Assembly (NCBI GenBank): GCA_012103535.1
Contig: WLWQ01000001.1
Span: forward strand, 1,618,280 to 1,682,279
Direction: 5' to 3'
Length of the DNA stretch: 64,000 nucleotides
DNA from: Pseudomonadales bacterium
GTDB taxonomy: Bacteria > Pseudomonadota > Gammaproteobacteria > Pseudomonadales > Pseudohongiellaceae
Shown: positions 13,183 to 41,389 of the stretch, one piece after another
Numbering within the stretch: the first letter of the stretch is position 1
Layout: each line of letters begins with the position of its first letter
The notes under the pieces: generated by a model
Told to the model about the DNA's origin: nothing
The model's database searches: none
The model's input: only the letters and a program-made list of their open reading frames with translations
Position numbers and translations under genes: made by a program

Positions 13183-13263
13183 TGCTGCTCGGTTCTGGTT
13201 TTGGACCTTTAAATACTATGGTAATCTCAGCCTCTGCTGTACTGCCTATCACGAGAATTACCC

Positions 13264-14951: not shown

Positions 14952-15460
14952 TGAGCTCAGACCAGCTTTCATTCTTCGATAGGAACGATCGTGAACGGGG
15001 ATTGTTTGAGCCGAATCCAACAGCTAATAAACCAAGTAGCTTTTCACTTACTAAAACTATTAACGCTCCATCTCAGCAAGTGTTTGATCAATGGTTAATT
15101 CCAGTTTTCATTGGCGACTGGATGTTTGGACCTAATGTACAGCGAGAACAGGTAATCAGCCTTGAAAATAAAGTGCGCAAGGGTGGAGATTACAAATTTC
15201 TCGTAAATAGGAAAGGTCAGGAAATTGAGGTTTGCGGTGAAATTCAGGAACTCGACATTCCAAAAAAATTAGTGCTTTCCTGGGTCGAAAACACTCATCC
15301 CAACGAAATCAGCCAGATTACTGCGCAATTTGAATCACACAATGAGAAAACTAAACTGAAACTAGGAGTAAAGCTTCCTGCTGAACTTAGCCCACAAAAA
15401 GACGCGATAAAAAAACTTTGGTCAACACGCCTTTCCGCACTCGCAAAAAAATTGAAGTAG
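14951..15460 (+). CDS. SRPBCC/AHSA1-like domain protein
   Basis: 169 aa, cytoplasmic. After a 35-residue lead the START/AHSA1-type fold appears: FSLTKTINAPSQQVFDQW, a GGDYKFLV strand, ELDIPKKLVLSWVE and a long C-terminal helix (LWSTRLSALAKKLK). Such proteins form a hydrophobic ligand pocket; the ligand is unknown. Its ATG overlaps the cytochrome frame stop (TAATG), so the three genes 13264-15460 form a coupled operon. The link between this protein and sulfite oxidation is unclear. Confidence 0.8.
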   Translation: MSSDQLSFFDRNDRERGLFEPNPTANKPSSFSLTKTINAPSQQVFDQWLIPVFIGDWMFGPNVQREQVISLENKVRKGGDYKFLVNRKGQEIEVCGEIQELDIPKKLVLSWVENTHPNEISQITAQFESHNEKTKLKLGVKLPAELSPQKDAIKKLWSTRLSALAKKLK

Positions 15461-15462
15461 TA

Positions 15463-15554
15463 ACGGCCATCCTATGGATGGCTCTACGGTCTTCCTTCGG
15501 ATGATTCTACCGCTATTCTTTGGATGACTTTAACGCCTTCCAATCGAAGATGCT
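15463..15554. repeat. four imperfect 23-bp tandem repeats
   Basis: Units at 15463-15485, 15486-15508, 15509-15531 and 15532-15554, each opening with a form of ACGGCC/AACGCC and holding a YYTTCC...GGATGA-type core. The first unit contains a perfect small palindrome, CCATCC-TAT-GGATGG. The array lies between convergent genes and its last unit encodes the C-terminal residues of the hydrolase. No terminator was recognised here otherwise. Confidence 0.5.
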
Positions 15555-25860: not shown

Positions 25861-25870
25861 GAATAAAAAA

Positions 25871-25897
25871 ACGGGAGCAAAAGCTCCCGTTTTTTTT
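25871..25897 (-). terminator. rho-independent terminator after the pilin gene
   Basis: Stem ACGGGAGC/GCTCCCGT with a 4-base loop and T-runs on both sides, so it can work in both directions: for the pilin gene on the minus strand and for lspA on the plus strand. Confidence 0.88.
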
Positions 25898-25913: not shown

Positions 25914-26582
25914 CTACATGCGATAGCAAATTGTGTATACGTTATCTTCTGAATACACACCACCACCACCGAGAACAGCATTAGATGGGTTAGTGTTTAC
26001 ACCACTCGTACCTTGAGTAGCTCGAACACGACCGGTTGCACCGGAACCGTCATCCAGTTCTCCATCGATTGCAATAGAAGCCGAACCAGGAACCTGGCTT
26101 AAGCAAACTTTATTACCGCCAAGGTTGCCGCCCATGTTGGCAGTAGTGATTCCAACTAATCCACCCCATGAGTTCGTAGGCAATGCCGCAATTGCGGTAT
26201 CCGCTGGATCACCAGCAATAAAACCAGCAGCTTTCAATTGACGCCAGAAAGTGCCGCTTTCACCGGCGCCATTAAACGCTTGATTGTTGTTCACCTGAAG
26301 CCGGCCGTTTGCGTTACCTCCAATGTTGGCACTGCTCCAGCTTGTACCACGACCTTGAATAGTTGCGGTTGGACCATCATCACCAGGCACGCGGCCATAG
26401 CGATCTTGATAGGCAAATACTGCTGCAGCTGTTCCGTTCATGTCTTTGGTAGCTTGCTTAACGCGAGAGTTCTCAATCAATTCTTGCCCTTGTAATACAC
26501 CACCAACAAGCAAACCGATAATAACCAGAACGATCGCAATTTCGATCAGGGTAAAACCCTTTTGGTTCTGTATGTTTTTCAT
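25914..26582 (-). CDS. type IV prepilin, MshA-like
   Basis: 222 aa. The class III signal is textbook: a short basic leader ending in Gly9, then FTLIEIAIVLVIIGLLVGGVL, with Glu at +5 (residue 14). The C-terminal domain is rich in Gly, Asn and Ala, and contains two Cys (KVCLSQ and TICYRM) that could form the usual disulfide loop. It is longer than most major pilins. A strong ribosome site (CCGGAGGGA, 8 bases before the ATG) and a 116-base gap from the kinase gene suggest separate, high expression. It is the last gene of the pilus locus and is followed by a strong terminator, as expected for the main pilin, though it could be a minor one. Confidence 0.85.
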   Translation of the reverse strand: MKNIQNQKGFTLIEIAIVLVIIGLLVGGVLQGQELIENSRVKQATKDMNGTAAAVFAYQDRYGRVPGDDGPTATIQGRGTSWSSANIGGNANGRLQVNNNQAFNGAGESGTFWRQLKAAGFIAGDPADTAIAALPTNSWGGLVGITTANMGGNLGGNKVCLSQVPGSASIAIDGELDDGSGATGRVRATQGTSGVNTNPSNAVLGGGGVYSEDNVYTICYRM

Positions 26583-26698
26583 TAGTTTATCCCTCCGGAA
26601 TAAAAACTTTATTTTTTATAACTAGCCTAATTCTGGGCTCCAGAAAACTGGCGCCACTATAGCCACAGGTATTTCCTCAGGCAATATGTAGGTTTTTT

Positions 26699-27757
26699 TT
26701 ACAATGGTTTCGGCAGATTTACCACGAATGTCATAGCATCGTCGCTAGGTGTGAGTGCTCTCAAGTTTCCTCCAGCTCCCGTAACTAGCTGCCTTGCGTG
26801 ATATAACCCTATGCCTAAACCATCTCCTTTTTCGCTCCAGAATGGCTCAAAAAGCCGTTCCGGCCATAAACAGGGTCGACCATTTTCGTCCCTAATTTTC
26901 ACTTCGAGATCATTCTCATTATCTTCGATAACGATTTGGATAATCGGCTGAGAGCCAGGGTTTCTGCGGGTTTCGTCAATATAGTTCCCAAACAAATTGT
27001 CACAAATACTGTTTAGAGACTGTTGATTGACTAATACCTGCCCTTCTCCGCTGATTTCGATCTCTAGGTCATGTATATCTGCAGTTTTGTGAAATGCTTC
27101 ACAAAGATTTACTGGTTGAACCGGATCCGTTGGAGTCTGGGTGGATAAGGTATTCAGGAATCTTTCAGATCTTTCGCGTAATGTGGGCATGACTGTTCTG
27201 AGGCTGCTCAGCAATTTTTCCTCTTTTCCAGCTGGCGTCGACTCAAGTTGCTCCGCTACCAGGCTGATAAGCTGCACGATGTTTTTCATATCGTGCTGCA
27301 AGAAAACATTCATCTTGGCGGTTTGTGCGAATGCACCTTGCACCGTGCCAAGCTTTACCCACATATCTGTATAGAGGAGTAAAAAGAAACTTTCCGATAA
27401 GACATTACTAAAGTAACGCTGCTCGAAACGCCGTTTGCCGTCATAGAGATGAACAGAAAGTGAGATGTCATCAATATCAAGAGATCGATCAATGAATACT
27501 TCGCCCTTGGTTCCTTCGCTGTGTGAAATAGTTGATCCGAACCAATCTAACTGCCAACTAATTCCTTTGAAACCAGCTTTCTGCAACGGCGCCCAACAAT
27601 GTCTTAAGAAATCCGGTAAATCGAAACCGAGCTCCTCATTTAAACTCACTAACTCATTTGTTATTCGAGCGCGACGTCTGGCCTGACCCAGCAACCAGGA
27701 TGTAGCAAGAATAATGCTAATGCCAATAAGAATTAAATAAGGATAGAGATTAGCCAT
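26699..27757 (-). CDS. membrane sensor histidine kinase in the pilus locus
   Basis: 352 aa. One N-terminal membrane helix (residues 5-22), then a cytoplasmic sensing region without recognised folds, a dimerisation helix carrying HDMKN (His155) and an HATPase domain with IRDENGRP, LFEPFWSEKGDGLGIGLYHARQL (given as segments) and a Gly-rich lid. The HDMKN box and short architecture recall PrsK-type kinases. It is 19 bases after the response regulator gene, its likely partner. Signal unknown; since the next gene is the pilin, pilus expression is the likely target. Confidence 0.87.
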   Translation of the reverse strand: MANLYPYLILIGISIILATSWLLGQARRRARITNELVSLNEELGFDLPDFLRHCWAPLQKAGFKGISWQLDWFGSTISHSEGTKGEVFIDRSLDIDDISLSVHLYDGKRRFEQRYFSNVLSESFFLLLYTDMWVKLGTVQGAFAQTAKMNVFLQHDMKNIVQLISLVAEQLESTPAGKEEKLLSSLRTVMPTLRERSERFLNTLSTQTPTDPVQPVNLCEAFHKTADIHDLEIEISGEGQVLVNQQSLNSICDNLFGNYIDETRRNPGSQPIIQIVIEDNENDLEVKIRDENGRPCLWPERLFEPFWSEKGDGLGIGLYHARQLVTGAGGNLRALTPSDDAMTFVVNLPKPL

Positions 27758-27776
27758 CGTCGCGTTTTATACCAAA

Positions 27777-28421
27777 CTATTTTAGAAAATAATAAATACT
27801 TTCACGTTTAAGTCCAAGCCTGGCCGCAGATTGATACACATTGAATTTCGTATCTTTTAATACATGTCTTACCAACTTTTCTTCAGCGTCTTCACGAACT
27901 GCTTTTAATCCGTCGGCGACTTTTGCATTTATCTGCAAACGTGTTAAGCCTTCTTCCTCCGACAATGTTCGTTCTTTTCGGTAAAACAATACTGCTCTTT
28001 GCACGGCGTTCAAAATATCTTCCGACTTCGAAGGCTTTGACAGGAAGTCGAAAGCCCCTTCTTTGATTGCAGCGAGCGCAGAACTCTCTTCGTCTTGTCC
28101 GGTAAGCACTACGATCTTTGCTGGATAGAGTTTCTCGACGACTGAACGGATAACTGCGAGTCCTTCCGCGGTGGTATGAGGGGAAGGTGGTAGTCCCAGA
28201 TCCAAAACGATAGCTGCAATGGATGTGTCGTCTTTTAGTATTGCTTCGGCAACTACTCGGCTATCCGCTTCCTGCACATGATAGTCATGGTTTTCCAGAA
28301 CATTGCGCATTACCAAGCGCAATGCAGGATCGTCTTCAACTAAGAGAATACGGATTGGCTCTTCTGATCCGATATCACTCGAATCTTCAGTTGCGCTGTT
28401 TTCTAATTCTTTTTCGTTCAA
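27777..28421 (-). CDS. response regulator with receiver and Fis-type helix-turn-helix
   Basis: 214 aa. The receiver domain (about 23-145) has the acidic pair in LLVEDD, phospho-acceptor Asp74 in IVLDLGLPP, Thr in VLTGQDE and Lys in FLSKPSKSE. The C-terminus is a Fis/NtrC-like DNA-binding helix pair (VYQSAARLGLKRESIYYFLK). No AAA+ domain lies between, so it should not activate sigma54 promoters in the NtrC manner. It lies between a pseudopilin gene and the kinase gene and is probably the output of that kinase. Confidence 0.88.
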   Translation of the reverse strand: MNEKELENSATEDSSDIGSEEPIRILLVEDDPALRLVMRNVLENHDYHVQEADSRVVAEAILKDDTSIAAIVLDLGLPPSPHTTAEGLAVIRSVVEKLYPAKIVVLTGQDEESSALAAIKEGAFDFLSKPSKSEDILNAVQRAVLFYRKERTLSEEEGLTRLQINAKVADGLKAVREDAEEKLVRHVLKDTKFNVYQSAARLGLKRESIYYFLK

Positions 28422-28456: not shown

Positions 28457-29179
28457 TTAGGGGAGCTGACCTGCAGAAATCATTCTAGTGTAGAGAATGT
28501 TTGGAGACATCCAGGTGAGTAAATCATCGAACACATCTTCAATGTAGGTGCTTACTACGAAATTATTATCATTAGGTAGCCGGTAACCATTGATTGTTGC
28601 TTCACCGGAGTTTTCAGTTTCATCCACATCAGCAGCGGTGAACTCGTCCCAATCAGCTCCCAATGACATTATTACAACCGGCAAGGTATTTGCTACGACA
28701 GTACCGCAGGCCGCAGCATCACAGATTCGTAAGTCTGGAGTCAAGGCCGCAATTCCCGTTGTGCGCATACCATTGACAGTAGTAAAAGCATTACCGTTTG
28801 CCGAGGACACTGAATAACGATAGGCGCTTAGCCAATCATCCATAAGCAAGCTGTCAGTATTGATTGGGCCAGCCAGACCCAGAGTGGCAGACGGAATAAA
28901 TCCATGCTGTTGCGTACAAGCACCACCCCCCGGCGGATCTTCTGCACCGTTAGTAGTCGCCGTAGCTGGACATGGCAATCTTCCATTGGCTTGGGCAAAA
29001 CCATAGAGAGACTCAAGCATTTCCTCCAGCTTCATCTCGGCGTCTGTTCGATAATTCATCTCCTGAGTGGTGCTAACTGACATCAACAAGCCACCCATTA
29101 ACAGGGAGACGATGAGGAGTACGATAGCCATTTCCAGTAGACTGAAACCTTCGGTTTTAAAAATTTTATTCATGTTCAT
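28457..29179 (-). CDS. type IV pilin-like protein (pseudopilin)
   Basis: 240 aa from ATG 29179 (AAAGG 8 bases upstream; the frame opens at GTG 29188). The prepilin peptidase site is KTEG-FSLLEMAIVLLIVSLLMGG, with Glu at +5. The soluble part has paired Cys (RLPCPAT and GGGACTQQ; LRICDAAACG) and a conserved NGRLPCP element shared with the next pseudopilin upstream. It probably forms part of the pilus tip or initiation complex, processed by a PilD/MshA-type peptidase encoded elsewhere. Confidence 0.82.
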   Translation of the reverse strand: MNMNKIFKTEGFSLLEMAIVLLIVSLLMGGLLMSVSTTQEMNYRTDAEMKLEEMLESLYGFAQANGRLPCPATATTNGAEDPPGGGACTQQHGFIPSATLGLAGPINTDSLLMDDWLSAYRYSVSSANGNAFTTVNGMRTTGIAALTPDLRICDAAACGTVVANTLPVVIMSLGADWDEFTAADVDETENSGEATINGYRLPNDNNFVVSTYIEDVFDDLLTWMSPNILYTRMISAGQLP

Positions 29180-29215
29180 CGTTTGCACCTTTGACGAAAC
29201 GAATCATTTGCCCAA

Positions 29216-30139
29216 TCAACAAAACGAACTAGTTTTTGCAACGCTGATTACCGCCACGTCTAATGTATAGGTAATATTACAACCGGTAAACAATACGCTT
29301 CCAGTGTCTGGGGTCAACTGTGTGTAGGTAGTATTTGCCGCCCAATTATTGCTTGCGAACCATGCCGGCGCACCGCCCATTGCAGTATTAAATTCTGTTT
29401 GGTCTGGAGGGTAGTTTCCATTTACCCCGTGATAGATATCGAGCTGTATTTTAATCGTCTCTGCAATACGCGCTGTGACCGGGGACATGATTTCGTTTAT
29501 AGAGATTGCCAGCACTTGATCATTGAAATTATCTGGATTAGCGGGATTATTACTTACAAAAGCCGTTCCTACTGCGTTACCTGATTCCAAATAGTTAGCC
29601 ACATTATTGTTAGGTCTTGTTTGTGAAACTAAAGCCTCGTCCGGAAACATGATTACCGCCGCGATACCAGTTTGACCATCTACAGTAATATTGCCTGTTG
29701 TAGTTGTATTAACTACTCCCGTTGGGTTTCGACGAAATGCGTCAGATAAGGCATACCAAATTTGCTGGTCTACGCCACTGTCATAGGCTGAAAGTGGAAA
29801 CATTGCAGCTGATGGAAGTGTAATCGAAATTGGCAGTCGTCCGATTGCAGTAACACAGGGTGAATTTTCTAATCCGTTATTGTTTGTATCGGGACAAGGT
29901 AAATGACCCGGTCCAGCCCCGGCAGCTCCATAATAATCCCCGTGCAGAACTGCGTAGGCGATTAACGCATCTTTGGTATCTCTTAGTGCTTCTATTGTGT
30001 TTGTGCTACCGCGCTGATCAATGACGTTGTTACTGACGATAGTTAAAAAAATACTGGCAGTGGCAAAAAAAACCACGATGAACAAGACCAGCAAAATAAT
30101 TCCTTGCTGTCTGGAGGGTACCGAGACAAGCGAGTTCAT
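29216..30139 (-). CDS. large pseudopilin-like protein lacking Glu+5
   Basis: 307 aa. The leader SRQQG precedes a hydrophobic helix IILLVLFIVVFFATASIF, but position +5 is Val, not Glu, a feature also seen in GspK/PilX-type tip subunits. The soluble region carries LPCPDTNNNG and is about twice the size of a standard pilin domain. The start overlaps the mshK-like stop (ATGA), so the two are coupled. Likely a minor tip pilin; the exact name is uncertain. Confidence 0.75.
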   Translation of the reverse strand: MNSLVSVPSRQQGIILLVLFIVVFFATASIFLTIVSNNVIDQRGSTNTIEALRDTKDALIAYAVLHGDYYGAAGAGPGHLPCPDTNNNGLENSPCVTAIGRLPISITLPSAAMFPLSAYDSGVDQQIWYALSDAFRRNPTGVVNTTTTGNITVDGQTGIAAVIMFPDEALVSQTRPNNNVANYLESGNAVGTAFVSNNPANPDNFNDQVLAISINEIMSPVTARIAETIKIQLDIYHGVNGNYPPDQTEFNTAMGGAPAWFASNNWAANTTYTQLTPDTGSVLFTGCNITYTLDVAVISVAKTSSFC

Positions 30140-30864
30140 TGAATTGGATCCTGAAGATCCCTCGCTTGATCGACTAGTTGGTTTGCATTGACAATCACAC
30201 CAGGGGTATTAGCAGTCGCAGGAGAATTTACTTCCGCAGCCGCAGCTTCCGCTGTATCGGGACCTGAAAGGTCAATTGGTTCCACTGTCTCAACCATTGG
30301 GGCTGCCGTAGTTTCGCCTTCCTCAGCAGCATCGATTGCTGGAGGTGGTGGTACATATTCGTAGGATTCTAACAGTACACCAGTAGTAAAATTGAGAACT
30401 TGTCCCGGTTTTACGTCATAAAATACGCCGGATTCCTCATTCGTAATGCGCAATTGCCCTTGGGTATAGGGCTCCAATAACTCCATATTTCCCGGCAGAT
30501 CTTCCTGATATATGGCCTCATTGTTGAGCCAGACTGTGTAGCGCCCATCATTCCTAAACATGGTCCCGCCCAGCCGATAGACTATCTCTACGATTTCCTC
30601 TTCTTCAAATAACGTTGGTAGCTCAATGAACTGAAGTGGTAGTTCTGACACCTCTTCAACTAGATCAGGACGGTTCAAACGCAATCTTTGCAGCTCAAGT
30701 TCAGCTCGCTCTGCAGGCGTCGAGAACAGACGTAGAATTGATTGGGCCGAAACTTCGGAGACCCAGGTAATTCCAAGCACCATGCTTAGAAGAACTAAAC
30801 ATCGCCCTAAAGAATGGATTCTATTGTGAAATAGACTGTTTCGCATATTCTCTTTTGTTTTCAA
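30136..30864 (-). CDS. MshK-like pilus assembly protein
   Basis: 242 aa with a signal peptide (cleavage near VSAQS). LRLFSTPAERAELELQRLR is a motif common in MshK-like and PilP-like proteins, followed by a beta-domain (LGGTMFRNDGRYTVWLNNE, VKPGQVLNF) and an Ala/Pro/Glu-rich C-terminal tail. Placement directly after the MshJ-like gene fits the mshI-J-K order. Probably periplasmic, linking the inner-membrane platform to the secretin. Confidence 0.72.
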   Translation of the reverse strand: MKTKENMRNSLFHNRIHSLGRCLVLLSMVLGITWVSEVSAQSILRLFSTPAERAELELQRLRLNRPDLVEEVSELPLQFIELPTLFEEEEIVEIVYRLGGTMFRNDGRYTVWLNNEAIYQEDLPGNMELLEPYTQGQLRITNEESGVFYDVKPGQVLNFTTGVLLESYEYVPPPPAIDAAEEGETTAAPMVETVEPIDLSGPDTAEAAAAEVNSPATANTPGVIVNANQLVDQARDLQDPIQ

Positions 30865-30868
30865 TGGC

Positions 30869-31507
30869 TTAAAAGCCTATAAAGGGTTCTCTTCGAAGCG
30901 TATACCAATGGAATCCACAACTAGCTATCTGCCTTTGTGAAAGCTGATTCGGAATTTCTTCAAGCTGAGGTGCCTGGGCAATAGCACAGCTATTGTTTAC
31001 CATCATGCGCCCACTACTCATAAAGTCTGCCAGGAACCGCGTTAAATCTTCCTCGTGCAATAAGGGTATCTGTACTGAGACCTGACTATTGCGTAATGAA
31101 ATTTGCTCATCGGGATTTTCTACATCGAATGGATACTCAAGCAGAACACGGTCCTGTTCTTGAATCTCGACAGCGATAGGAAATAGTTGATATCTATCTC
31201 TAATGACGCTGATCTCTTCGAGCAGACTAACTCGGTCTTCTTCTTCGAGAACTGCATTTGCGATCATGGTGTTATAAGTATCAATATTGTTAATAATGAC
31301 TTGCTCAGCATTTTCAATATCTCGTATCTGCCCATTAACAAAGTCGAGCTCGCTTAGTGCATTGAATTCCTGGTTCTGCATGTCGTCTCGATAAACACTC
31401 GCACTAAAAAACAATCCCAGTGATGCGCCCAGTACGATAACAAGCAACACAATATTCCACTTAAGCCACAGCAAGTCCTCTTTAATATGTCTTCTTTTGA
31501 GTGCCAT
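30869..31507 (-). CDS. MshJ/PilO-like inner-membrane assembly protein
   Basis: 212 aa. One N-terminal membrane helix (about 14-34), a predicted coiled coil (about 45-95, FNALSELDFVNGQIRDIENAE in segments) and a C-terminal ferredoxin-like domain with two Cys. This is the PilO/MshJ architecture: a bitopic partner of the PilN-like half of MshI. It starts 2 bases after the mshI-like stop. Confidence 0.75.
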   Translation of the reverse strand: MALKRRHIKEDLLWLKWNIVLLVIVLGASLGLFFSASVYRDDMQNQEFNALSELDFVNGQIRDIENAEQVIINNIDTYNTMIANAVLEEEDRVSLLEEISVIRDRYQLFPIAVEIQEQDRVLLEYPFDVENPDEQISLRNSQVSVQIPLLHEEDLTRFLADFMSSGRMMVNNSCAIAQAPQLEEIPNQLSQRQIASCGFHWYTLRREPFIGF

Positions 31508-31509
31508 GC

Positions 31510-33042
31510 TTAACTACCAAGCCTCACAGTTAGTGCAAAATCAGAATTGATTGCCTGACCATCAAGAATTGTTGCCACCTCTCCATCTGGTCCCGATTCT
31601 ATAGGTAGTTCCAACGGCGTAATGGTCGCTCCTTGAATCTGCCCTAATGTGCTCATAAATAGTCGCAACTGGCGATCAGAGTTTTGAATACTCGAGGATC
31701 CCATCAATGTTCCATAAATATTTACGCTCACCTGTGTTGAATTACTCAACAAACCTTCGGTGTAACTCAAGTCAACATTGGCTGGGCTGAGCTGCCATTC
31801 TATTGACGACAGGCTTATTGCAGGAAAGCGCGCTATAACTCGGCTTATATCTGAAAGCACGGATACCGGAGAGCGTATTTGAGAACGGATAAGCTCGTAG
31901 CGACTTACCGCCAGCGCCATTGCATCGGTAGGAATTGGGGTCTCAGGGAACTCAGCCACCAATGCATCATATTGATTCTGCACCGGCAAAACTTGGGCTG
32001 ATAAAGAAGCAATTCGGGAACTCCTATCAATTGCCTCTAGCATGATTGGTGCCGAAATTAATCCGCTAACAATGAGCAAAGCCAGACAAACAAAACCGAT
32101 TAACCTACGGGCCTGAGTCAAATGAAAGAAGCGCATTGCCGAGGAAGGTGCGTATTGATTAGCTAATTTTCCAGTACGCACTCCCCATTCTAAACAGAGT
32201 AGTACGGCTGTTATTGAATTCTGTGGGCCGTTGTATCGATCTATTTGCAACATGTCGATGGAATTATGGTGCTCGATCTTGCGGAAGTTGCGGTTGATAC
32301 TCATGTCAGAAAAAACATGATCTTCCAACAGCGGCGTAATCACATGCACATCCAGGTTTTGATCGAAAGTAAGCAAGCCAATTCTTTCTAGATATTCACG
32401 GGATTGATTGCAGGAATCGAGTATGTATCCAGGTAAATCATCATTCGGATCATGAGGCAGTGGCGTTAACCTGCTAAACATCATTTTTCCATCAACAATA
32501 AACGTTTGCCTAATGCCGGATTCTTCCCAATTCACTAGCAAAACAGTATCGCTTGTTAGCAAGTCATATTCACTGGCAATTTTACAAAGAGCAAAGGCTG
32601 GAGTTGTTATGCTCTTAATCGGGACTTCTTCACTCAATAACACTCTAACCCAGGGGTCGATTATTTCATTCTTGGTTAATGCGCTAAACAAAACACTATC
32701 ATCTCTGCGACTGCTATCGTCCCTACCGAGTATTGACACCGAGCGATACTCAGAACCGCGAAAATGTTGATCGACTTTGCGTCTTAAAAAAGCAGACCTA
32801 TCAAAAATGCTCACGTGAGCAACTGACTCAACAACGAAATCTTCCGCAGCGGAATCGATGAGTAAAGTCACGGGCGAACGCGGATTGTCAATCAAGTAGT
32901 TGCGAAAATTTTCATATCCCACGTCTTCATCAGAAAATTTACCCACATGAACGAGTCGATCTTTCTCTAGTTTAAAGACCGAAAGACCTTCCGCATTTAT
33001 TAGCAATATGCGTTTATGTGAAGATCCAATTAGACTAGCCAT
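31510..33042 (-). CDS. mshI: MshI-like (PilM-PilN/GspL-like) platform protein
   Basis: 510 aa. The N-terminal half (about 1-290) resembles the actin-like PilM/GspL fold (KRILLINAEGLSVF, VTLLIDSAAEDFV, DTVLLVNWEESGIRQTFIVDGK in segments). A single membrane helix (about 305-330) is followed by a periplasmic PilN-like domain with a short helical stretch. This combined layout matches MshI or GspL. It would recruit the ATPase MshE to the inner membrane. It lies between the MshG- and MshJ-like genes. Confidence 0.78.
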   Translation of the reverse strand: MASLIGSSHKRILLINAEGLSVFKLEKDRLVHVGKFSDEDVGYENFRNYLIDNPRSPVTLLIDSAAEDFVVESVAHVSIFDRSAFLRRKVDQHFRGSEYRSVSILGRDDSSRRDDSVLFSALTKNEIIDPWVRVLLSEEVPIKSITTPAFALCKIASEYDLLTSDTVLLVNWEESGIRQTFIVDGKMMFSRLTPLPHDPNDDLPGYILDSCNQSREYLERIGLLTFDQNLDVHVITPLLEDHVFSDMSINRNFRKIEHHNSIDMLQIDRYNGPQNSITAVLLCLEWGVRTGKLANQYAPSSAMRFFHLTQARRLIGFVCLALLIVSGLISAPIMLEAIDRSSRIASLSAQVLPVQNQYDALVAEFPETPIPTDAMALAVSRYELIRSQIRSPVSVLSDISRVIARFPAISLSSIEWQLSPANVDLSYTEGLLSNSTQVSVNIYGTLMGSSSIQNSDRQLRLFMSTLGQIQGATITPLELPIESGPDGEVATILDGQAINSDFALTVRLGS

Positions 33043-33061: not shown

Positions 33062-34267
33062 TTAAAACTGTAAATTGCTGATAGAATCGTAGACCGGCCC
33101 CATCACCGAAAGCATTACCCATCCCAAAATACTGCCTAAGAATAATGTCATTGTCGGCTGAATAAGTGCCTGCACCTTGTCTATCGAGTCTTTAATATCT
33201 CGATCATAAAAGTAACTTACATTCATCAAGGCTTGATCAAGCTGCCCCGTAGTTTCTCCAACGCGAATCATGCGCACCACTAATGGAGGAAATAATCCGG
33301 TGTTTTGAAAACTAGTAGAAACACCTACTCCTCCCTGAATATCCTCTCTGGCTTTCGATAGTGCATTTCGAATCGCCACATTGCCTGCAATACGTTCCGT
33401 AATCTCTATACATTGCAATACTGGTATACCGGCCTTATACATCATGCCAAAAAAGTTGGCGAAGCGAGAAAGTACTATTTTTTTTAGCACCGGACCGATT
33501 TGCCAGACTCGCAGCTTAAACGAATCCAGTTGATAACGAACATCGAGACTGATCGTCGCAAGCCCTTTTAAAAGTAACGCTAGAAAAACTGGAATTACGG
33601 TAAACAAGTACCAAAAGTTTACAAAGAAATCAGAAGTTGAGATTAACATTCTTGTGTGAAAAGGAAGTGTCGATCCGATACCTTCGATGAAATCAACTAA
33701 CTGAGGAACGAGATAAATCATCAAAAATCCGATTACGAATAATATTACTGTGCCGACGAACGCGGGAAAGATTAGTAGTTTTTTAGTCGTCGTGATTAGT
33801 TCGTCTTGCCACTTAATCATATTATTAAGAGACAAAAACACCTCGGGCAAGGTACCACTCGCTTCTCCTGCAGCGATCAAATTTACAAACATTTCATCGA
33901 ATACTTTAGGATGCTCAGCAAGCGCCTCCGACAATTTCTTGCCACTCTCTATATCTTCGATAACTTTTGCAATGATTGTTCTAAACGATGCCTGCTCGAC
34001 ACTGTCACGTAGATCTACCAGACCGTCAAGAATGGTTACTCCCGAACGAGTGAGCTGCTCCATGTGAAAACAAAAGTTGATTAGATCAATTCGGCGTATT
34101 TGACCGCGACCTGTGACATGTTTTTTGTCTTCAAGAAACTTACATCGAATGAGATCCATGCCCATTCTGTTAACGCGATTCTCGAGATCGGATTCGTTAG
34201 CCGCATCAAGCTTGCCGGTATGATAGCGACCTCGATTGTCTACAGCTTTGTAAGTAAATAGCCCCAT
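33062..34267 (-). CDS. mshG: MshG, PilC/GspF-family inner-membrane platform protein
   Basis: 401 aa with the two-fold GspF-type domain repeat. It starts MGLFTYKAVDNRGRYHTGKLDA, typical for this family, and contains FCFHMEQLTRSGVTI, LPEVFLSLNNMIKWQ, a central membrane pair (about 170-230), RFANFFGMMYKAGIPVLQC and a final helix (about 365-390). It anchors pilus polymerisation in the inner membrane and couples to the ATPase MshE, whose gene is 6 bases upstream. Confidence 0.9.
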   Translation of the reverse strand: MGLFTYKAVDNRGRYHTGKLDAANESDLENRVNRMGMDLIRCKFLEDKKHVTGRGQIRRIDLINFCFHMEQLTRSGVTILDGLVDLRDSVEQASFRTIIAKVIEDIESGKKLSEALAEHPKVFDEMFVNLIAAGEASGTLPEVFLSLNNMIKWQDELITTTKKLLIFPAFVGTVILFVIGFLMIYLVPQLVDFIEGIGSTLPFHTRMLISTSDFFVNFWYLFTVIPVFLALLLKGLATISLDVRYQLDSFKLRVWQIGPVLKKIVLSRFANFFGMMYKAGIPVLQCIEITERIAGNVAIRNALSKAREDIQGGVGVSTSFQNTGLFPPLVVRMIRVGETTGQLDQALMNVSYFYDRDIKDSIDKVQALIQPTMTLFLGSILGWVMLSVMGPVYDSISNLQF

Positions 34268-34273
34268 GCCAGG

Positions 34274-35989
34274 TCAACCTACTCTACCGGTGAGATCAAC
34301 GACACGTGTAATTTCATCCAGGCTTGTTGTTCCCTGTAATACTCGTCGACAAGCATCATCCGCCAGAGTTTTAAATCCGGTTGCAATCGCTGCTTTCAGC
34401 AATTCATGGGCTGAGGTGTTCTGAGAGATTAACTTCTTCAGGTAATCTGATATTTTCATAATCTCAACAATGGATGTTCGCCCCTTATAGCCAGCGTGGT
34501 CGCAGACTTTGCATCCTACAGCCTTGTAAATTTTGACTTGTTCGACAGCGTCGTCGATTGCTAGTAATTTGCGTTCTAACTCCCCAACTTCCTGCGCCTC
34601 TTTGCAACTTTCACACAGTCGCCGCACCAATCTTTGTGCGATGATTCCAATTAAATTGCTGGCCATAATGTCGGGCAAAACACCCAGATCTTGCAATCTC
34701 GGTATCGAACCCACAGCAGAATTCGTGTGGAGGGTTGAAAAAACCTGATGCCCGGTCATGGAGGCTCGAAACGCCATATCTGAAGTTATATCGTCTCGTA
34801 TCTCACCGACAAGAATCACATCTGGATCTTGACGCATCATTGAGCGTATCCCTTCTGCAAAACCCATCTTTGCCGATTCGTTAATAGATGTTTGGCGTAT
34901 CATGGGCATGGGATACTCCACCGGATCTTCCATCGTCATGATATTGATTGCTTCAGTGTTTATGTGATTCAACACTGAGTATAGCGTGGTCGTCTTACCA
35001 CTACCGGTTGGACCAGTTACCAATATTACTCCTTCCGGTTTCGCTAACATCAGTTTAGTTGTATGCAGGTTTTCGTCACTCAATCCCAGAGCATCCAATG
35101 GCACGATACCTTTCCTGCGATCCAGTATCCGCAGCACAACATTTTCACCATAAGAGGTGGGCTGAGAAGCAACACGAAAATCTATCTGGCGCCCGAGCAG
35201 CGACAGTGAGACTCGCCCATCTTGAGGGGCGCGCGCCTCAGCAATATTCATGTCACTAATTACTTTCAAGCGAACTACCATGGCTGGCCAATAACTTTTA
35301 TGCAGACTACGGACTTGTCTTAACACACCATCAATACGATAGCGTATTCTTAAGAAGGCCTCTTCCGGTTCAAAGTGGATATCAGATGCATCTCTTTGTA
35401 CTGCATCGGCTAACAGTGCGTTTACCAGACGCACCATAGGATGATTGTATTGATCCCCGTCTGCCTGTAGCGACTCTAAGTCTACTTCACCTGTTTCTAT
35501 TTCCTGCAAGATACCGTCAATCGAAAGATCGAAACCGTAGGCTTCCTCGAGTACGCGAGTAATTTCAGAATCACTAGCAAGAGTTGGAACAATGTCTAAC
35601 TCTGTGTCTTGAATGGCTCGTACCTGGTCAAGAGCAACGATATTAAACGTATCCGCCATTGCCAGAGTAAGCTCATGTTTGGCTTTGTCATAAGAGAGAG
35701 GAAGAATTTTAAATCGACGTGCAACATCCTGAGGCACCATCTTTATAGCCTCAGCATCCATTACCGTGTTTGCAAGATCGACACTCGAAAAACCAGTATT
35801 TTCGGAAAGAGCGTCACGAATAATAGAGTCAGTAACAAAACCAAGCTCAATCAGCACGGCTCCGATACGCTTGCCAACAACTTTTTGTTCCTGCAAGGCG
35901 ATCTTAAGCTGATCTTCAGTGATCATGCCTTTGTCAATCAGCACCTCACCAATGCGTTTTTTAGGTTGGTTTTGGGCAGGCTCGCTCAT
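34274..35989 (-). CDS. mshE: MshE, pilus extension ATPase with MshEN c-di-GMP domain
   Basis: 571 aa. The N-terminal MshEN domain has two tandem motifs: KRIGEVLIDKGMITEDQLKIALQEQ (about 11-35, in segments) and KRIGAVLIELGFVTDSII (40-57), each with the R-x-G that binds cyclic di-GMP in characterised MshE proteins. The ATPase core follows: ASDIHFEP, Walker A TGPTGSGKTTT (326-335), EDPVEYPMP, Asp box DPDVILVGEIRD, His box STLHTNSAVG and a C-terminal zinc tetra-Cys (CESC and CKVC). The ATP-driven motor polymerises pilin, and extension is probably stimulated by c-di-GMP. Its ATG overlaps the mshN stop (ATGA). Confidence 0.94.
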   Translation of the reverse strand: MSEPAQNQPKKRIGEVLIDKGMITEDQLKIALQEQKVVGKRIGAVLIELGFVTDSIIRDALSENTGFSSVDLANTVMDAEAIKMVPQDVARRFKILPLSYDKAKHELTLAMADTFNIVALDQVRAIQDTELDIVPTLASDSEITRVLEEAYGFDLSIDGILQEIETGEVDLESLQADGDQYNHPMVRLVNALLADAVQRDASDIHFEPEEAFLRIRYRIDGVLRQVRSLHKSYWPAMVVRLKVISDMNIAEARAPQDGRVSLSLLGRQIDFRVASQPTSYGENVVLRILDRRKGIVPLDALGLSDENLHTTKLMLAKPEGVILVTGPTGSGKTTTLYSVLNHINTEAINIMTMEDPVEYPMPMIRQTSINESAKMGFAEGIRSMMRQDPDVILVGEIRDDITSDMAFRASMTGHQVFSTLHTNSAVGSIPRLQDLGVLPDIMASNLIGIIAQRLVRRLCESCKEAQEVGELERKLLAIDDAVEQVKIYKAVGCKVCDHAGYKGRTSIVEIMKISDYLKKLISQNTSAHELLKAAIATGFKTLADDACRRVLQGTTSLDEITRVVDLTGRVG

Positions 35990-38010
35990 TCTGCTTCCAT
36001 CTGGCCGATACTTTCTAGTCTGCTTCGAGCAACACTTAGGTTGAATCCAGCCGGATGGTTACTAGCGAATTCCAATGCCTCTTCGTAATAATTTTGGGCT
36101 GGAATGGATTGACTCAAATGTTCCAAACTTACTGCTAGATTAAAAGCATAGTCCGGATTCACCGGTTGACCCAGTAACGCATCAGATTTCGCAACTTGTA
36201 GCGCTCGAAAGTATTGCTGTTGCGCGCTAGACCACTGATCTTCTGAAGCATAAAAATTACCCAAGGCGTAGAGCAATGGTGCCAGGTTTTCGTGCATGTC
36301 ATTTAGTCTTCTAAGTTCTCGTTCGACTTCCGCTGGATTTCCAGTGGGCTGTAATTCCAGTATTCCGGCTCTAGCAACAGGATCGCTAGGATCTCGGGCA
36401 AGTAATTGCGAATACAATTCCATAGCGCGAATTTGTTCGTTTTCGGAATTCGCAATAGCAGCGAGCCCGAGTAAAGCATCACGATTATGCGGCGCAGAAA
36501 CTAAAGTCTGTTCATATTGGTTTTTCGCGTCAACGAGATTTCCTTGCTGATAAGCAATGTAGGCATTTGCCAAAATAGGATCAATCGTTGATTCTGTTTC
36601 CCGACGAGTAAAGCTAATTAAGTTCACTGGCTCTTCCGGGGTCGAAATTTCACTTTCTGCAGTTTCAGCGGCCAATTCTGCAAGCGCTTCGATTTCAGCT
36701 ACCAAAGCTTCTGCGCCGGCTACTTCATCACTACTTTCAGAAACCTGAACTTCATTTAGCGGTGATTCCTCAACCGCAATTGCAACTGGAGCATCCGCAG
36801 TCTGTTCAGGCGGGGTTAGAACAGGTTCGCCGATTACTTGGGAAATAGTTTGAGAGCTCTCTACTGAAGGTTGCGGAGGACTAAGTCCGATTGCCGCAAA
36901 ATCAATTGTTTCTGGCTCTTCTAATACTTCTGTTTCAACAGCAGTATCAAATATTTCGGTTTCCGCAAGACTGTTTACTGCTTCGGCCAAAGTAGTTTCA
37001 TCCAGCGTATCTAAAGTCGCCTCATCCAGCGCGCTAGAACTTTCTGCAGACAGAGCTTCTTCATTTAGAAAAGTTTGCTGTCCCGCAACGAAATCTACAG
37101 GAACTGTTATGCCGCTATCTGTGCTAGTTGATAAATAAAAGTAAACAAGCCCGACGCCTATTACTAGCACTGCAGCCATGCCTATACCGGCAATCTGTAA
37201 ATTTCGTTTCTGTTTTTGTTTAGCGCGTTTGGCGGCGAACACTGACTTCGCAGAAATTCTATCGTCGCGACCTTTTTCTGAACTCGCATCGACTGATTCC
37301 GCTTTTGGTTGGGGAATCGCGAACAAGGCTGCAGTTTTCTCATCTTCTTCGTCTAGCGGCGGCGCCTCTTCGCCAACGATTGGCTCTGCATGCACAGCGG
37401 ATGTTTCTATCTTGTTTTCTTCAGCCTGTGAGCCTTCCTCTTCCGTATTTCCCTGAATAGTTTCAACACTTGCTTCGACTACTGTTTCCTCGGGAGGAAT
37501 TGTCTCAGCGGTTTCTTGCTCTGCGGTGCTTTCAACACTTTCATCTATCGACAAGTCTGGCGTAACAGTTTCAAGTTCCTGAGAATCAGTGGAATCACTA
37601 CCAGCATCTGAAGTGGAGACTGGCTCAGATTCTAAAGATGCTGCTTCCTCAGCATATGTCTCTATCTGTTCTACTTCTTCACTAACTGAATCTGTTTCTT
37701 CAGTTTCGGTTGATATTTGTGCACGGGTGGGATCTGGCCCTGATTTAGGCTCCAGTTCCAATTCAAGAGAAGAGTCACTGGAGGCTTCAGGCGTTGCGGG
37801 AACTTCTGTTTCTTCAAACTCGATTTCTGGATCGGGAATGCTAGAAGTTTCTGGTTGGCTTGATTCTGCGAGTTGGGTTTCGGCGGACGCAGTATCACTC
37901 GATTCCGCATCGGCGGATTGAGTATCAGATTCTGGTTCGGGCTTTTTCCCTTGCTCGGCCTGCTTTTTCTCTTCCTCGGCCTTGCGCAGTGCGTCCATTA
38001 ATAGACTCAT
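35986..38010 (-). CDS. mshN: MshN-like TPR protein with acidic linker
   Basis: 674 aa. It begins MSLLMDALRKAEEEKKQAEQ, the usual MshN start, continues as a 230-residue Glu/Ser/Thr-rich low-complexity stretch, then one membrane helix (about 268-290), another acidic periplasmic linker and a C-terminal set of TPR repeats (about 470-670; LANAYIAYQQGNLVDAKNQYEQ, ALLGLAAIANS). It probably scaffolds the secretin or platform in the periplasm. The Glu-rich part is unusually long. Together with mshE it shares an ATGA overlap. Confidence 0.82.
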   Translation of the reverse strand: MSLLMDALRKAEEEKKQAEQGKKPEPESDTQSADAESSDTASAETQLAESSQPETSSIPDPEIEFEETEVPATPEASSDSSLELELEPKSGPDPTRAQISTETEETDSVSEEVEQIETYAEEAASLESEPVSTSDAGSDSTDSQELETVTPDLSIDESVESTAEQETAETIPPEETVVEASVETIQGNTEEEGSQAEENKIETSAVHAEPIVGEEAPPLDEEDEKTAALFAIPQPKAESVDASSEKGRDDRISAKSVFAAKRAKQKQKRNLQIAGIGMAAVLVIGVGLVYFYLSTSTDSGITVPVDFVAGQQTFLNEEALSAESSSALDEATLDTLDETTLAEAVNSLAETEIFDTAVETEVLEEPETIDFAAIGLSPPQPSVESSQTISQVIGEPVLTPPEQTADAPVAIAVEESPLNEVQVSESSDEVAGAEALVAEIEALAELAAETAESEISTPEEPVNLISFTRRETESTIDPILANAYIAYQQGNLVDAKNQYEQTLVSAPHNRDALLGLAAIANSENEQIRAMELYSQLLARDPSDPVARAGILELQPTGNPAEVERELRRLNDMHENLAPLLYALGNFYASEDQWSSAQQQYFRALQVAKSDALLGQPVNPDYAFNLAVSLEHLSQSIPAQNYYEEALEFASNHPAGFNLSVARSRLESIGQMEAE

Positions 38011-38038: not shown

Positions 38039-39676
38039 CTAGAAAGGATTTAGATTCTGCAGCACGTTCGAGCTTGTTGAACTAGTCGGTAGGTACTCCC
38101 GATAATTCTCCAGGTCACCGTTGATACTTGCCTGGTTGTCAACAACTGGCCTGATAAAAATGATCAGCTCAGTCTTGATGGTGTTGTCATCTCGATAGTT
38201 AAACAAATCTCCTACAAGTGGTAGCTGACCTGCAATTGGCACTCCAGCAACTGTAGAGTCAATTGTGTCCTGAATTAGCCTGCCGAGCACTGCAATTTCT
38301 CCGCTATCAACCTTTAGAATGGACTCAATTTCACGAATCTGCAATTCTGGAATGGAGTTTATAACCGAGGCATCAGCCAAAGCGGGATTAGGATCAGTAA
38401 CGAAGCGAACGATGCGGGAAATAGTGGGCCTTACATTTAAGGTAACCTGGTCGTTTTCACTAATTTGGGGCGTGACCGCCATGGTAAATCCTACCGGTAC
38501 AGTATGCACTTCACTGGTAAACGTCGGTGGTATGGCCGGACTGGTTGCAGTAGCTGGAAAGCCAGCTTCTACATCGATGGTAAAATATATTTTATTGTCC
38601 ACTACACGCAACATGGCGGTTTGATTATTCAATGCCATTAGCTTGGGGCTTGAGAGAACCGAGATATCTCCGAACTCGGCCAAGGCCTGAATCGTTGCTC
38701 CGATAGCATCGGGCCCTGAAGTTTTGTCGATGGTTAATATACTGGTAGGCGTATTACTCAGATTCAGACCCAGTAGATCTTGCCCAAAGTTGACTTGACC
38801 ATTGTCTCTAGCTAACACTGCCCAATCTACGCCTAACTGGTAGCGATCATTCAGGTTAACTTCTACTACCGTGGCTTCAATTAGCACTTGGTACAAAGCC
38901 CGAGTGCGAACTGATTCTATAAAGTCGTAGATCTCGAAATGTTGCCGATTTGTGGCGCGCACTGTTACCAGTCCAGATTCGGGGCTGATTACGATGTTGC
39001 TTGGCCCGGTACTCACCTCTTCAGATGCATCTTCACCAAGAATCGTAGTAAGATTGTTTGCTAGGGTAGTCCAAAAAGCATTGGCAGAATTTTGCGTTAG
39101 CAAGGTTGTTGAGTTATTCGATTCCCCCCCACCCCCACTATCTTCACCTATACCTCCGGTTACTGCCGATGAAACACTAACTTCGGACGCCGAGCTTCGA
39201 GTCACATTTACATAATCAATTTGATAACTTCGCAGAACTGGTAAGTCAGGCTGTACGGAAAGATAGTCTGGTCGTTCAAAGGTCCAGAGGATGTCTACCT
39301 GATTAGAGATGCGATTTAGAATTTGTGGCAGGGTTTGATCAATAGCATTTATGCTGATCGTACCTTCCACAGTTGAATGCACATCGATATTTATATTGGC
39401 ATCTCTGGCCATTGCGAACAGTAATTCTCTTACTGGTACGTCTTGCACAACCACGGAATACAAATCCAACGGGGCTTCAACTTGTGGTGCAGTGACAACT
39501 GGCAAGTCCCGAACTATCTCTGGAATTTCAGAAGTATCAACAATGTCTGGGGCCTCAAGATGCCGATTCTCCACCTCCCAATCAGGCTCCATGGTGGCTG
39601 GAGGTAAGGCGTCGCAAGCGACCAATCCTGACAGCGCCAGTATGAGAAAAACGTTCTTCTTATTAATAGACTTCAT
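38039..39676 (-). CDS. mshL: MshL-like secretin (outer-membrane pilus pore)
   Basis: 545 aa. The lipobox LSGLVAC places Cys21 as the lipid-modified residue. An N-terminal secretin/TonB short domain (about 70-140, VPVRELLFAMARDANINIDV in segments) is followed by a Ser/Gly-rich loop, an N1-type domain (VIEATVVEVNLNDRYQLGVDW) and the secretin core with VLSSPKLMALNNQTAMLRV and GEIAVLGRL. The protein forms the outer-membrane channel for the pilus. Gene neighbours support the MSHA assignment over PilQ. Confidence 0.9.
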   Translation of the reverse strand: MKSINKKNVFLILALSGLVACDALPPATMEPDWEVENRHLEAPDIVDTSEIPEIVRDLPVVTAPQVEAPLDLYSVVVQDVPVRELLFAMARDANINIDVHSTVEGTISINAIDQTLPQILNRISNQVDILWTFERPDYLSVQPDLPVLRSYQIDYVNVTRSSASEVSVSSAVTGGIGEDSGGGGESNNSTTLLTQNSANAFWTTLANNLTTILGEDASEEVSTGPSNIVISPESGLVTVRATNRQHFEIYDFIESVRTRALYQVLIEATVVEVNLNDRYQLGVDWAVLARDNGQVNFGQDLLGLNLSNTPTSILTIDKTSGPDAIGATIQALAEFGDISVLSSPKLMALNNQTAMLRVVDNKIYFTIDVEAGFPATATSPAIPPTFTSEVHTVPVGFTMAVTPQISENDQVTLNVRPTISRIVRFVTDPNPALADASVINSIPELQIREIESILKVDSGEIAVLGRLIQDTIDSTVAGVPIAGQLPLVGDLFNYRDDNTIKTELIIFIRPVVDNQASINGDLENYREYLPTSSTSSNVLQNLNPF

Positions 39677-39682
39677 TGAACG

Positions 39683-41389
39683 TTACTCCGAGATCAATCC
39701 AGCAATGGTGAAGTTAGTATTACATTCGACGCTGCTCATGTTTTGTACGAAAGGCTGGGTATTATGCAAATGATTAGGCAGTTCACCGATGAAATCCTGA
39801 CCCACAGAAAGTCCCGGAAAATTCCCGTATTTAATGGTCCAATAATTACTTCCATCAATATTGGACAAACACAAATAGGTTTCTTCAATTAATCCTTCGC
39901 TCTTCAGAATATTGAGAAAAGACTCAGCTGATTCAATGTTCGTCTTAGGGCCCGAAAATAGCTGCACGGTATAACCTTCTCGATCGGCGTTGTTAAGCCA
40001 CTCTATCGACGCAACAATTCGCTGTTGTGATAGATTTGAGTTTTGAAGATATGACAATTCCGGAACAGCGACGGCAAGCTCTGCTGTTGCAGCTTCCAAT
40101 GGAGAGTCGATTGCGAAGCCCTCAATAGTCTCAGCAATCGCAATGTTTTCTAGGTACATTCGAGGTGCCGGGGTTTCTTCCTTCTCTATATAGGATTCCA
40201 GCTCAATAGCTGCGATCGACATTGGCAGCAAATCTATCTCTGTGATTCTAGGTTGGGTTACTGCTAGCAATGGCTGAATAGCTTCCTCTACTGGAACAGC
40301 TTCAATAATAGGTTTGTTTCTCGGGAAGACGCTTGCCTCGGCAAGTGAATCTTTAAGAACTTCAGGTTTACTTATTGACGTGTCTAACAGCTCTGCAGGA
40401 TTTGGTTCGTTGATGAGAGTTCTGGTACTGGCAATTCCTTCTGTGCGCGGCCACAGAAAAAATGTCAGAGCTATGATTACAATAACCATGCTAGCGCTCA
40501 TTATTTTTATAGGCGAAAACATGGACTTAAATACAGATGAAGAATATTCGCTATCTCGCATAGCGGCATATACATGCTTCCAGGTGATTGTCGGCGGGAC
40601 ATCTGGACCTAACTGCTCATAGTCTTGTAATACGTCTTCTGCAAATGCCGAAAGCAATGCCTTGTCGGCAAGAATATTAATTCGACGAGTAAGCCCGCTG
40701 GATGCTTTTGCGATTAACCACTCTGCACCTTTGGTAAACATGTTTGGACAAGGACAACCGGCTGCTTGCAACCGGAAATGTATATAGTCTGCGACTTCGT
40801 GATTTTCCAGAGGATCCAGGGAAAAACTGTGAGTAATTCTTTCTTTCAGTTGTCTGATGTGTTTTACGCTTAGATTTTTATCCAACTCTGGTTGGCCGAA
40901 CAAGATAATCTGCATTAGTTTGTCGCGATGGGTTTCCAGATTGCTGAACAAGCGAATCTCTTCCAGAGTTTCAATAGGCATGCCCTGGGCTTCTTCAATA
41001 ATTACCAACACTCTTCGATTCGCAGAATGTTGCTTTAACAGGTAATTCTGCAACTGCTGCATTACTAATAGTTTTGACGTGTCCCGTCGCACCATGAGTT
41101 TCAGTTCGAAGGCGATGGCGTAGAGGATGTCTTCCGGACTCAGATTGGGATTCGCGATGTAAACGATTTCGGTAGATTCGGGTAAGCGCTCTTCCAGCAT
41201 GCGGCAAAGCATGGTCTTGCCGCTGCCAACTTCCCCAACGACTTTAAGAATGCCTTCGCCAGTTTCAATGGCATAGAGCATGGCATCCAGGACTACACCT
41301 CGACCCTGTCTACCACCGGAAAAAAACAGAGAAGTATCTGGAGTAATTCGAAACGGATGACGTTCCAAAGAAAAATAGTCCAGATACAT
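39683..41389 (-). CDS. mshM: MshM-like AAA ATPase with transmembrane helix and SPOR-like C-terminus
   Basis: 568 aa. The ExeA/MshM-type ATPase begins MYLDYFSLERHPFRITPD and has Walker A GEVGSGKTM (52-60), Walker B VLVIIEEAQ and sensor-like LIQIILFGQPEL region (about 165). A membrane helix lies at about 300-320, followed by a long periplasmic part whose end (about 455-540, EGYTVQLFSG, SNIDGSNYWTIKYG) resembles a SPOR/DamX peptidoglycan-binding domain. It is the first gene of the pilus locus; AGGAG stands 9 bases before the ATG. Confidence 0.85.
   Translation of the reverse strand: MYLDYFSLERHPFRITPDTSLFFSGGRQGRGVVLDAMLYAIETGEGILKVVGEVGSGKTMLCRMLEERLPESTEIVYIANPNLSPEDILYAIAFELKLMVRRDTSKLLVMQQLQNYLLKQHSANRRVLVIIEEAQGMPIETLEEIRLFSNLETHRDKLMQIILFGQPELDKNLSVKHIRQLKERITHSFSLDPLENHEVADYIHFRLQAAGCPCPNMFTKGAEWLIAKASSGLTRRINILADKALLSAFAEDVLQDYEQLGPDVPPTITWKHVYAAMRDSEYSSSVFKSMFSPIKIMSASMVIVIIALTFFLWPRTEGIASTRTLINEPNPAELLDTSISKPEVLKDSLAEASVFPRNKPIIEAVPVEEAIQPLLAVTQPRITEIDLLPMSIAAIELESYIEKEETPAPRMYLENIAIAETIEGFAIDSPLEAATAELAVAVPELSYLQNSNLSQQRIVASIEWLNNADREGYTVQLFSGPKTNIESAESFLNILKSEGLIEETYLCLSNIDGSNYWTIKYGNFPGLSVGQDFIGELPNHLHNTQPFVQNMSSVECNTNFTIAGLISE

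Follow-up and report, generated by a model that had tools for sequence, protein, structure and literature searches.

A two-component pair inside an MSHA-like pilus locus as a probable switch of the neighbouring pilin gene

Examination of a 64,000-nucleotide stretch of a Pseudomonadales genome of the family Pseudohongiellaceae (hereafter the window) revealed a histidine kinase and a response regulator encoded within an MSHA-like pilus locus, together with a conserved 22-bp element in front of the pilin gene. We consider it likely that this pair serves the pilus system as a pilin switch of its own, a relative of PrsK/PrsR without the sigma54 domain which, judging from sequence comparisons, would directly activate a sigma70 promoter of the pilin gene. 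The element accompanies the pair in a wide range of bacteria, a distribution suggestive of a self-contained control circuit. Local two-component control of a pilin gene is of a known kind; the sigma70 promoter, the kinship with PrsK/PrsR and the frozen element are unusual. A literature search found no description of the pair, the element or the module within its coverage, most subscription journals lying outside it.

Results

The pilus locus

Open reading frames combined with profile searches over the window placed the kinase and regulator genes between the pseudopilin and pilin genes of a minus-strand locus, in which the gene order on that strand is mshM-L-N-E-G-I-J-K-like, pilX-like, pseudopilin, regulator, kinase and pilin. 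The mshM-like ATPase gene (39683..41389), recognised by AAA_22 and position only, is followed by genes for an mshL-like secretin (38039..39676), an mshN-like TPR protein identified by Pfam and NCBIfam profile searches (35986..38010), an mshE-like motor ATPase with T2SSE and MshEN matches (34274..35989) and an mshG-like inner membrane platform with a T2SSF match (33062..34267). Three further genes were named from position alone: the mshI-position gene (31510..33042), used as a marker for the locus sub-type, the mshJ-position gene (30869..31507) and the mshK-position gene (30136..30864). The pilX-like gene (29216..30139) has no Pfam or NCBIfam match; the N-terminus of its product is hydrophobic by eye, and homologues occupy the equivalent place in relatives. 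The pseudopilin gene (28457..29188) lies directly upstream of the regulator gene (27777..28421), after which come the kinase gene (26699..27757) and, with its start 116 bp past the kinase stop, the pilin gene (25914..26582).

The genes mandatory for MSH are mshE, mshG, mshL, mshM and the pilin gene, according to the available part of PMC6668835, and like genes were all found within this one locus, mshM by AAA_22 and position only. The locus is called MSHA-like because its MshL scores 231.1 bits, under the TIGR02519 cut-off of 250.2. An earlier sequence-only reading had described a PrsK-like HDMKN kinase and a receiver-Fis-HTH regulator without AAA+ domain at this place, and a pilin gene with its own leader and strong ribosome site; both descriptions are borne out, the latter by the prepilin leader MKNIQNQKG/FTLIE and a GGAGGG at 26591-26596. 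A search against PHROGs gave no informative lead. On the 3' side of the pilin gene (25865-25897), a stem-loop flanked by T runs was noticed by eye; from its sequence it may be a terminator for transcription from both directions. The source genome also has a second msh-type locus, of L-M-E-G order (G000:C3:263866-264741, L176).

Domains and kinship of the pair

The regulator, of 214 amino acids, matches Response_reg (71.4 bits) and HTH_8 (23.3 bits, cut-off 22), and Pfam detected no AAA+ domain in it; a pattern search for the Walker motif was likewise negative in all 80 of its best 80 relatives. Its best NCBIfam match is PrsR (TIGR02915, 92.5 bits), strongest in the receiver. It falls outside PrsR proper both by score (92.5 against a cut-off of 502.6) and by the missing sigma54-interacting AAA+ domain, and outside RegA/PrrA/ActR (NF033791) by score (61.3 bits against 250). 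In an AlphaFold model of the regulator of a relative (L184; mean pLDDT 87.2), a receiver and a long linker helix are followed by three more helices, which in the model are as would be expected for a Fis-type domain. A solved 184-residue regulator, 3rqi, was matched both by the family profile and by the model.

The kinase has 352 amino acids, with the HDMKN motif beginning at residue 155 and its sole hydrophobic helix at residues 8-26. This single helix, an alpha/beta domain, DHp and HATPase make up the protein, and its AlphaFold model (mean pLDDT 80.5) shows an N-terminal helix, the alpha/beta domain and the kinase core. Pfam recognised HATPase_c alone (35.8 bits); neither Pfam nor NCBIfam names the alpha/beta domain, and a fold search with the kinase returned histidine kinases, leaving that domain unnamed. 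One hydrophobic helix precedes the His in 69 of the 77 kinase relatives counted. The best NCBIfam match, over residues 143-349, is PrsK (TIGR02916), at 70.6 bits well under the cut-off of 300. The phospho-acceptor motif agrees with PrsK, HDxKN reading HDMKN here and HDLKN in two proteins above the PrsK cut-off. Searching the whole genome with the PrsK model gave nothing above cut-off, and other kinases of that genome reached up to 84 bits. Since the score is thus unspecific, we rejected it as sole proof of PrsK kinship and built the case on motif, tree and profile combined.

With the family profile, six PrsR-type regulators scored 78-113 bits, against 62 or less for the other regulators tried; the two of the six that were checked, and their kinases, exceed the NCBIfam PrsR and PrsK cut-offs. 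In a receiver tree, the pilus regulators fall on the same side of a branch as PrsR and the AAA+ msh regulators; the SH-aLRT of this branch, 86, is under the tool's mark of 95, in a tree with long branches. Trees in which pilus regulators and PrsR are held together were not rejected (p-AU 0.55).

Distribution of the pair

Full-length orthologues of both proteins were found in 8 of 60 same-genus genomes, always between pseudopilin and pilin, with identities of 67-81% for the kinase and 78-83% for the regulator. The mshI-position gene occurs in the same eight genomes and in three more (G024, G012 and G031). The locus of G024 is present without the pair, that of G012 (L080) is broken and decayed and holds a kinase remnant, no regulator having been found in it, and the contig of G031 ends short of the pair's position. 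In G022 (L081) the machinery has been lost at the site, and the pilin gene is kept, preceded by what remains of the kinase gene and by a damaged element. Elsewhere in the family, the pair is present in G220, G283 and G303. As a side observation, overlapping repetitive ORFs, by eye short tandem repeats, replace regulator and kinase in G024 (L079:11957-12419).

Among 293 genomes of the order, 143 had an MshL-model match at E 1e-40 or better, 78 of them above cut-off. We fetched 92 of the 99 matches of 199 bits or more, some stretches ending at contig ends; the window, three genomes fetched before (G063, G081, G092), G105 (contig end), G174 and G223 stand outside this count. Only two of the 92 regions carry the pair (L161, L165), so the earlier statement that canonical msh operons lack it holds in this sample. 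The commonest order was mshL-M-E-G, and in 17 of the 92 regions the opposite strand encodes an NtrC-type regulator of a different kind. In two loci of the window's sub-type from other families (L084, L151), a PrsR-like regulator with AAA+ stands before mshM (289-1740 and 189-1619, respectively), and between pseudopilin and pilin the opposite strand encodes an HDxKN kinase that has four or five hydrophobic helices (14897-16660 and 12996-14711). PrsKR-like pairs at this pilus type therefore come in two forms, of which the AAA+ version is possibly the older state. No -24/-12 (sigma54) promoter was found before the pilin gene in the other-family sub-type loci L082, L083, L084 and L151. Two other features were noted. 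In L082 (14121-15631) and L084 (16812-18363), pseudopilin and pilin are separated by two genes, which by eye encode an ABC-type permease and a TPR-like protein. G178:C156 (L085, L162) and G118:C16 (L087, L169) each bear a back-to-back pair of msh loci that differ in order.

When 84,980 species genomes were searched with the regulator profile, 385 relatives were found, of which the best 80 were analysed; this set and the MshL and genus surveys share genomes (for example L183 = G043 and L208 = G220), so that the surveys overlap. Among the best 80 of the 385, a kinase is adjacent in 77, a pilin gene follows the kinase in 68 and an msh machinery gene lies within the stretch examined in 64. Their hosts are Gammaproteobacteria, Betaproteobacteria and some metagenome-assembled genomes labelled Desulfobacterota. 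Pseudohongiella, Undibacterium, Massilia, Polaromonas, Sulfuritalea and Sideroxydans are among the named hosts; the metagenome-assembled ones include Desulfobulbaceae and Syntrophorhabdaceae, some of these labels being perhaps binning errors. Two Thiomicrospira among the 80 have a lone regulator, with no kinase or pilus genes in the stretch listed.

The repetition of the regulator-kinase-pilin order in 8 of 60 same-genus genomes and far beyond argues against chance. Insertion of the pair in one genome was rejected, as these eight genomes and many other lineages carry it. Its position inside the locus, as described in the earlier reading, thus stands; that it is a local anomaly does not, the pair being a recurrent part of a locus sub-type, present in related msh loci of the genus and in wider relatives.

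A conserved element in front of the pilin gene

Alignment of the DNA from kinase stop to pilin start in the window and the eight genus loci revealed one near-invariant block, TGTAAAAAAAACCTACAT(A/C)TTG, amid diverged DNA; L161 and L165 also carry it, L161 with one change. In the window the block corresponds to a 22-bp element, TGTAAAAAAAACCTACATATTG, at 26682..26703 on the minus strand, with a 15-bp G-N13-C core at 26688-26702. The stretch 26583-26698 had earlier been named as the place to look for a regulator site, and the putative site found lies in that stretch plus 5 bp. On the sequence comparisons that follow, the element is probably the binding site of the regulator sought upstream of the pilin gene.

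At one mismatch or fewer, the 22-mer was present in 12 of the 12 known pair-bearers among 71 family genomes and in 0 of the 59 others, 7 of which were searched by motif only and not with the pair's proteins. It was absent from all 368 other genomes of the class, a search that bears on motif specificity alone, as the pair was not sought in them. G303 was found by the motif alone, and its regulator (61% identity), kinase (45%) and pilin (50%) surround a perfect site. The element is absent in G024, whose locus has no pair, and damaged in G012 and G022, which have kinase remnants. Of the best 80 relatives, 76 could be scored, the four left aside being L247 (distance limit; kinase and pilin follow), L248 (contig end), and L251 and L254 (no kinase). 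The 22-mer is perfect in 27 of the 76 and has at most two mismatches in 33, a level never reached when each of the 76 stretches was letter-shuffled 200 times; among the perfect-site loci, regulators are down to 54% identical with each other. The element often starts at the kinase stop codon and elsewhere lies up to 134 bp beyond it.

Binding sites of Fis have 15-bp AT-rich cores with G/C and C/G bounds and T/A favoured just outside, in the excerpted text of PMC4784862. The window element contains a 15-bp AT-rich core bounded by G and C, GTAAAAAAAACCTAC, and by its sequence would fit this frame. In 63 loci, left after 13 more were dropped for want of a recognised prepilin start, GTA-N10-AC was found in 58 and GTAAA-N8-AC in 51, against 6.1 and 1.26 expected from first-order resamples. 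The five GTA-N10-AC misses in the scored stretch are L233, L243, L245, L252 and L255; when the stretch was widened, a site appeared just before the kinase stop in all of them except L233. Outside the 22-mer group, related 15-mers stand at the equivalent place: GTAAATAAATTAGAC in Undibacterium and Janthinobacterium (L209, L214), GTAAAACTTTCTGAC in Sulfuritalea (L227) and GTATATTTATTTTAC in Syntrophorhabdaceae (L228). Site and protein also vary together. At the recognition-helix residue after the conserved Arg-Glu, Ser goes with a TAC half-site in 35 of 35 cases, and Asn or His with a GAC half-site in 27 of 35; this was scored at 70 of 76 loci, the other 6 having no site, and a few sites are perhaps chance matches. 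As the receiver tree implies one or two independent changes and some sites may be chance, we take this covariation as a weak hint.

A second, orthologous copy of the element, with one C to T change, occurs in the source genome (L177:2970-2991; G000:C2:764969-764990) and in its sister G043 (L178:2729-2750; G043:C34:5228-5249), flanked by genes for a Ser/Thr protein kinase and an AI-2E family transporter. The pilin gene is therefore not the sole possible target in these genomes, and the sequence of this copy makes it a possible second target of the regulator. By eye, the Ser/Thr kinase gene is followed by genes resembling those of a PP2C phosphatase and an FHA protein. Weaker 17-bp matches, with two mismatches, turn up at scattered places in pair-bearing genomes and in others alike.

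The pilin promoter

The last three bases of the element are the TTG that opens the -35 hexamer of a sigma70-type pilin promoter on the minus strand (26656..26684), TTGCCT-N17-TATAGT, with the -35 at 26679-26684, a 17-bp spacer and the -10 at 26656-26661. Across 33 loci, a -10 hexamer agreeing with TATAAT at 5 of 6 positions or better, at a distance of 16-18 bp, was found in 16, against 0.83 expected, and in all 16 the distance is 17 bp. A sigma70 consensus scan of the window alone found 6 promoter-like sites against 6.0 in shuffles; as it did no better than the shuffles, the case for the promoter is drawn from conservation. A search of window positions 20001-44000 for -24/-12 sites found none that agreed at 11 or more of the 12 scored positions. 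The promoter has a good -10, and its -35 keeps the consensus only as TTG; the centre of the 15-bp core falls near -46.

Discussion

The sequence-only reading had suggested that the pair controls the pilin gene locally, a proposal that the conserved element, co-occurring with the pair, supports, and from this co-occurrence we infer binding. In the circuit that we propose, the single-helix kinase would pass phosphate to the regulator by way of the invariant His155 and Asp74, and the regulator, once phosphorylated and dimeric by way of its Fis-type domain, would bind one 15-bp G-N13-C site near -46. From there it would aid sigma70 polymerase, the promoter combining a good -10 and a 17-bp spacer with a TTG-only -35. 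The regulator and kinase genes closely follow the pseudopilin gene, and their product would act on the next promoter. As to the signal, the kinase might perhaps gauge the pilin pool of the membrane, by analogy with PilS.

The kinship with PrsK/PrsR leads us to infer an order of losses, in which the regulator would have lost its AAA+ domain and the kinase most of its membrane helices, while the site would have shifted from a distant sigma54 enhancer position to one against the sigma70 -35. A more ambitious account would have a sigma54 enhancer-binding regulator turned into a sigma70 class II activator acting on a 22-bp frozen operator, the whole being a self-regulated MSHA-like module exchanged among Gammaproteobacteria, Betaproteobacteria and Desulfobacterota, with a one-helix kinase watching the pilin pool. 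We offer it tentatively, as a possibility somewhat short of even chances.

Several observations could be read otherwise. In the window genome the circuit might be decaying, with the pair controlling nothing there. The regulator has a premature stop (27777-27779), in frame and near the end of the recognition helix, where full-length relatives are about nine residues longer; all 11 aligned orthologues, and 22 other sequences in a further alignment, extend beyond it. The kinase of the sister genome G043 also has an in-frame stop, and G012 and G022 hold remnants. These stops could be recent, early decay, or assembly errors. We regard decay as rather unlikely, given that the sequence behind the regulator stop still resembles the relatives' tail in the same frame, and that the recognition helix of the L184 model ends one residue past the point at which the window protein stops. 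Moreover, comparison of the window with G043 gives the regulator a pN/pS of 0.156 and the kinase one of 0.150, near that of mshG (0.127), and the pair has therefore been under selection.

The element touches the -35 hexamer, so a regulator bound to it might instead repress the promoter by blocking polymerase there. A TTG-only -35 combined with a good -10 is what would be expected of an activator-dependent promoter, and activators touching sigma usually have their site centred thereabouts, near -46; repression therefore seems unlikely to us, and activation the better reading. It is quite improbable that the element belongs to another, global factor while the pair acts elsewhere, at the mshM promoter, on exopolysaccharide or on the Ser/Thr kinase cluster. 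Such a site would be common, whereas this one tracks the pair in the family (12/12 against 0/59), was found in 0 of 368 class genomes at one mismatch or fewer, and is gone from the pairless locus of G024; what speaks for such a factor is the second copy between two unrelated genes in two genomes, and that Fis itself binds AT-rich cores of this type, in the part of PMC4784862 that was available. The frequent start of the element at the kinase stop codon might suggest that it acts as RNA, for instance where the kinase message ends. This is scarcely credible, since other loci have the element as far as 134 bp beyond the stop and since its TTG holds a 17-bp distance to the -10.

The known control of the MSHA pilus runs through c-di-GMP and MshE. 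Transcriptional control of its pilin is poorly charted, and the binding of the regulator proposed here would provide a concrete candidate regulator, site and promoter. Undibacterium and Massilia, genera with cultured strains, have the pair, so that the circuit is testable at once. The system may also be a case of an enhancer-binding protein that loses its AAA+ domain and whose site moves to fit, the AAA+ loci in two other families being the possible older state. Finally, perfect conservation of 22 bp alongside regulators that have diverged to 54% identity is unusual. The element also makes a useful search key, as the blind discovery of G303 illustrates.

Comparison with known systems

The closest likeness is to PrsK/PrsR of XrtA/PEP-CTERM systems, with which the pair shares the HDxKN kinase core, the DLGLPP receiver, the Fis-type HTH and a branch of the tree. 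PrsR, however, has an AAA+ domain and a sigma54 promoter, whereas the pilus regulator has no AAA+ domain, a sigma70 promoter and the pilin gene as its likely target; similarly, three PrsK proteins have 7-9 hydrophobic helices by the same count that gives the pilus kinase one. The predicted PrsR box is a 17-nt motif with TTTACA at its 3' end and a -24/-12 promoter on average 63 nt downstream (Haft and colleagues, PMC1569441), and a regulator of D. vulgaris predicted for PEP-CTERM genes was found at its predicted targets by DAP-chip, in the portion of PMC3333781 available. The pilus element likewise measures 17 nt, counted from its TGTA through its TACA. When TGTAAA-N5-TTTACA was tried as a guess at the PrsR box, it turned up in 1 of the 6 genomes having PrsR-type pairs and 2 of the 8 other genomes, and was not supported; because this direct check failed, kinship of the element with the PrsR box is put forward only as a suggestion.

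Like PilS/PilR of type IVa pili, the pair would set the transcription of the major pilin. PilR works with sigma54, and PilS has six transmembrane segments and contacts pilin (PMC6058289, as excerpted); the pilus regulator, without AAA+ domain, and the kinase, with one helix rather than six segments, place the pair outside PilSR. EmbRS of Rubrivivax was considered as the same system and rejected, its regulator being LuxR-type in the accessible text of PMC3684757. The architecture of the pilus regulator is the same as in RegA/PrrA/ActR, which is served by another type of kinase. The RegA/PrrA/ActR regulators consist of a receiver and a Fis-type HTH without AAA+ domain, and their gene setting differs from the pilus locus. 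Compared with MSH loci, of which the commoner order in our survey begins with mshL-M, the locus described here combines an M-L-N-E-G-I-J-K order with a built-in two-component pair.
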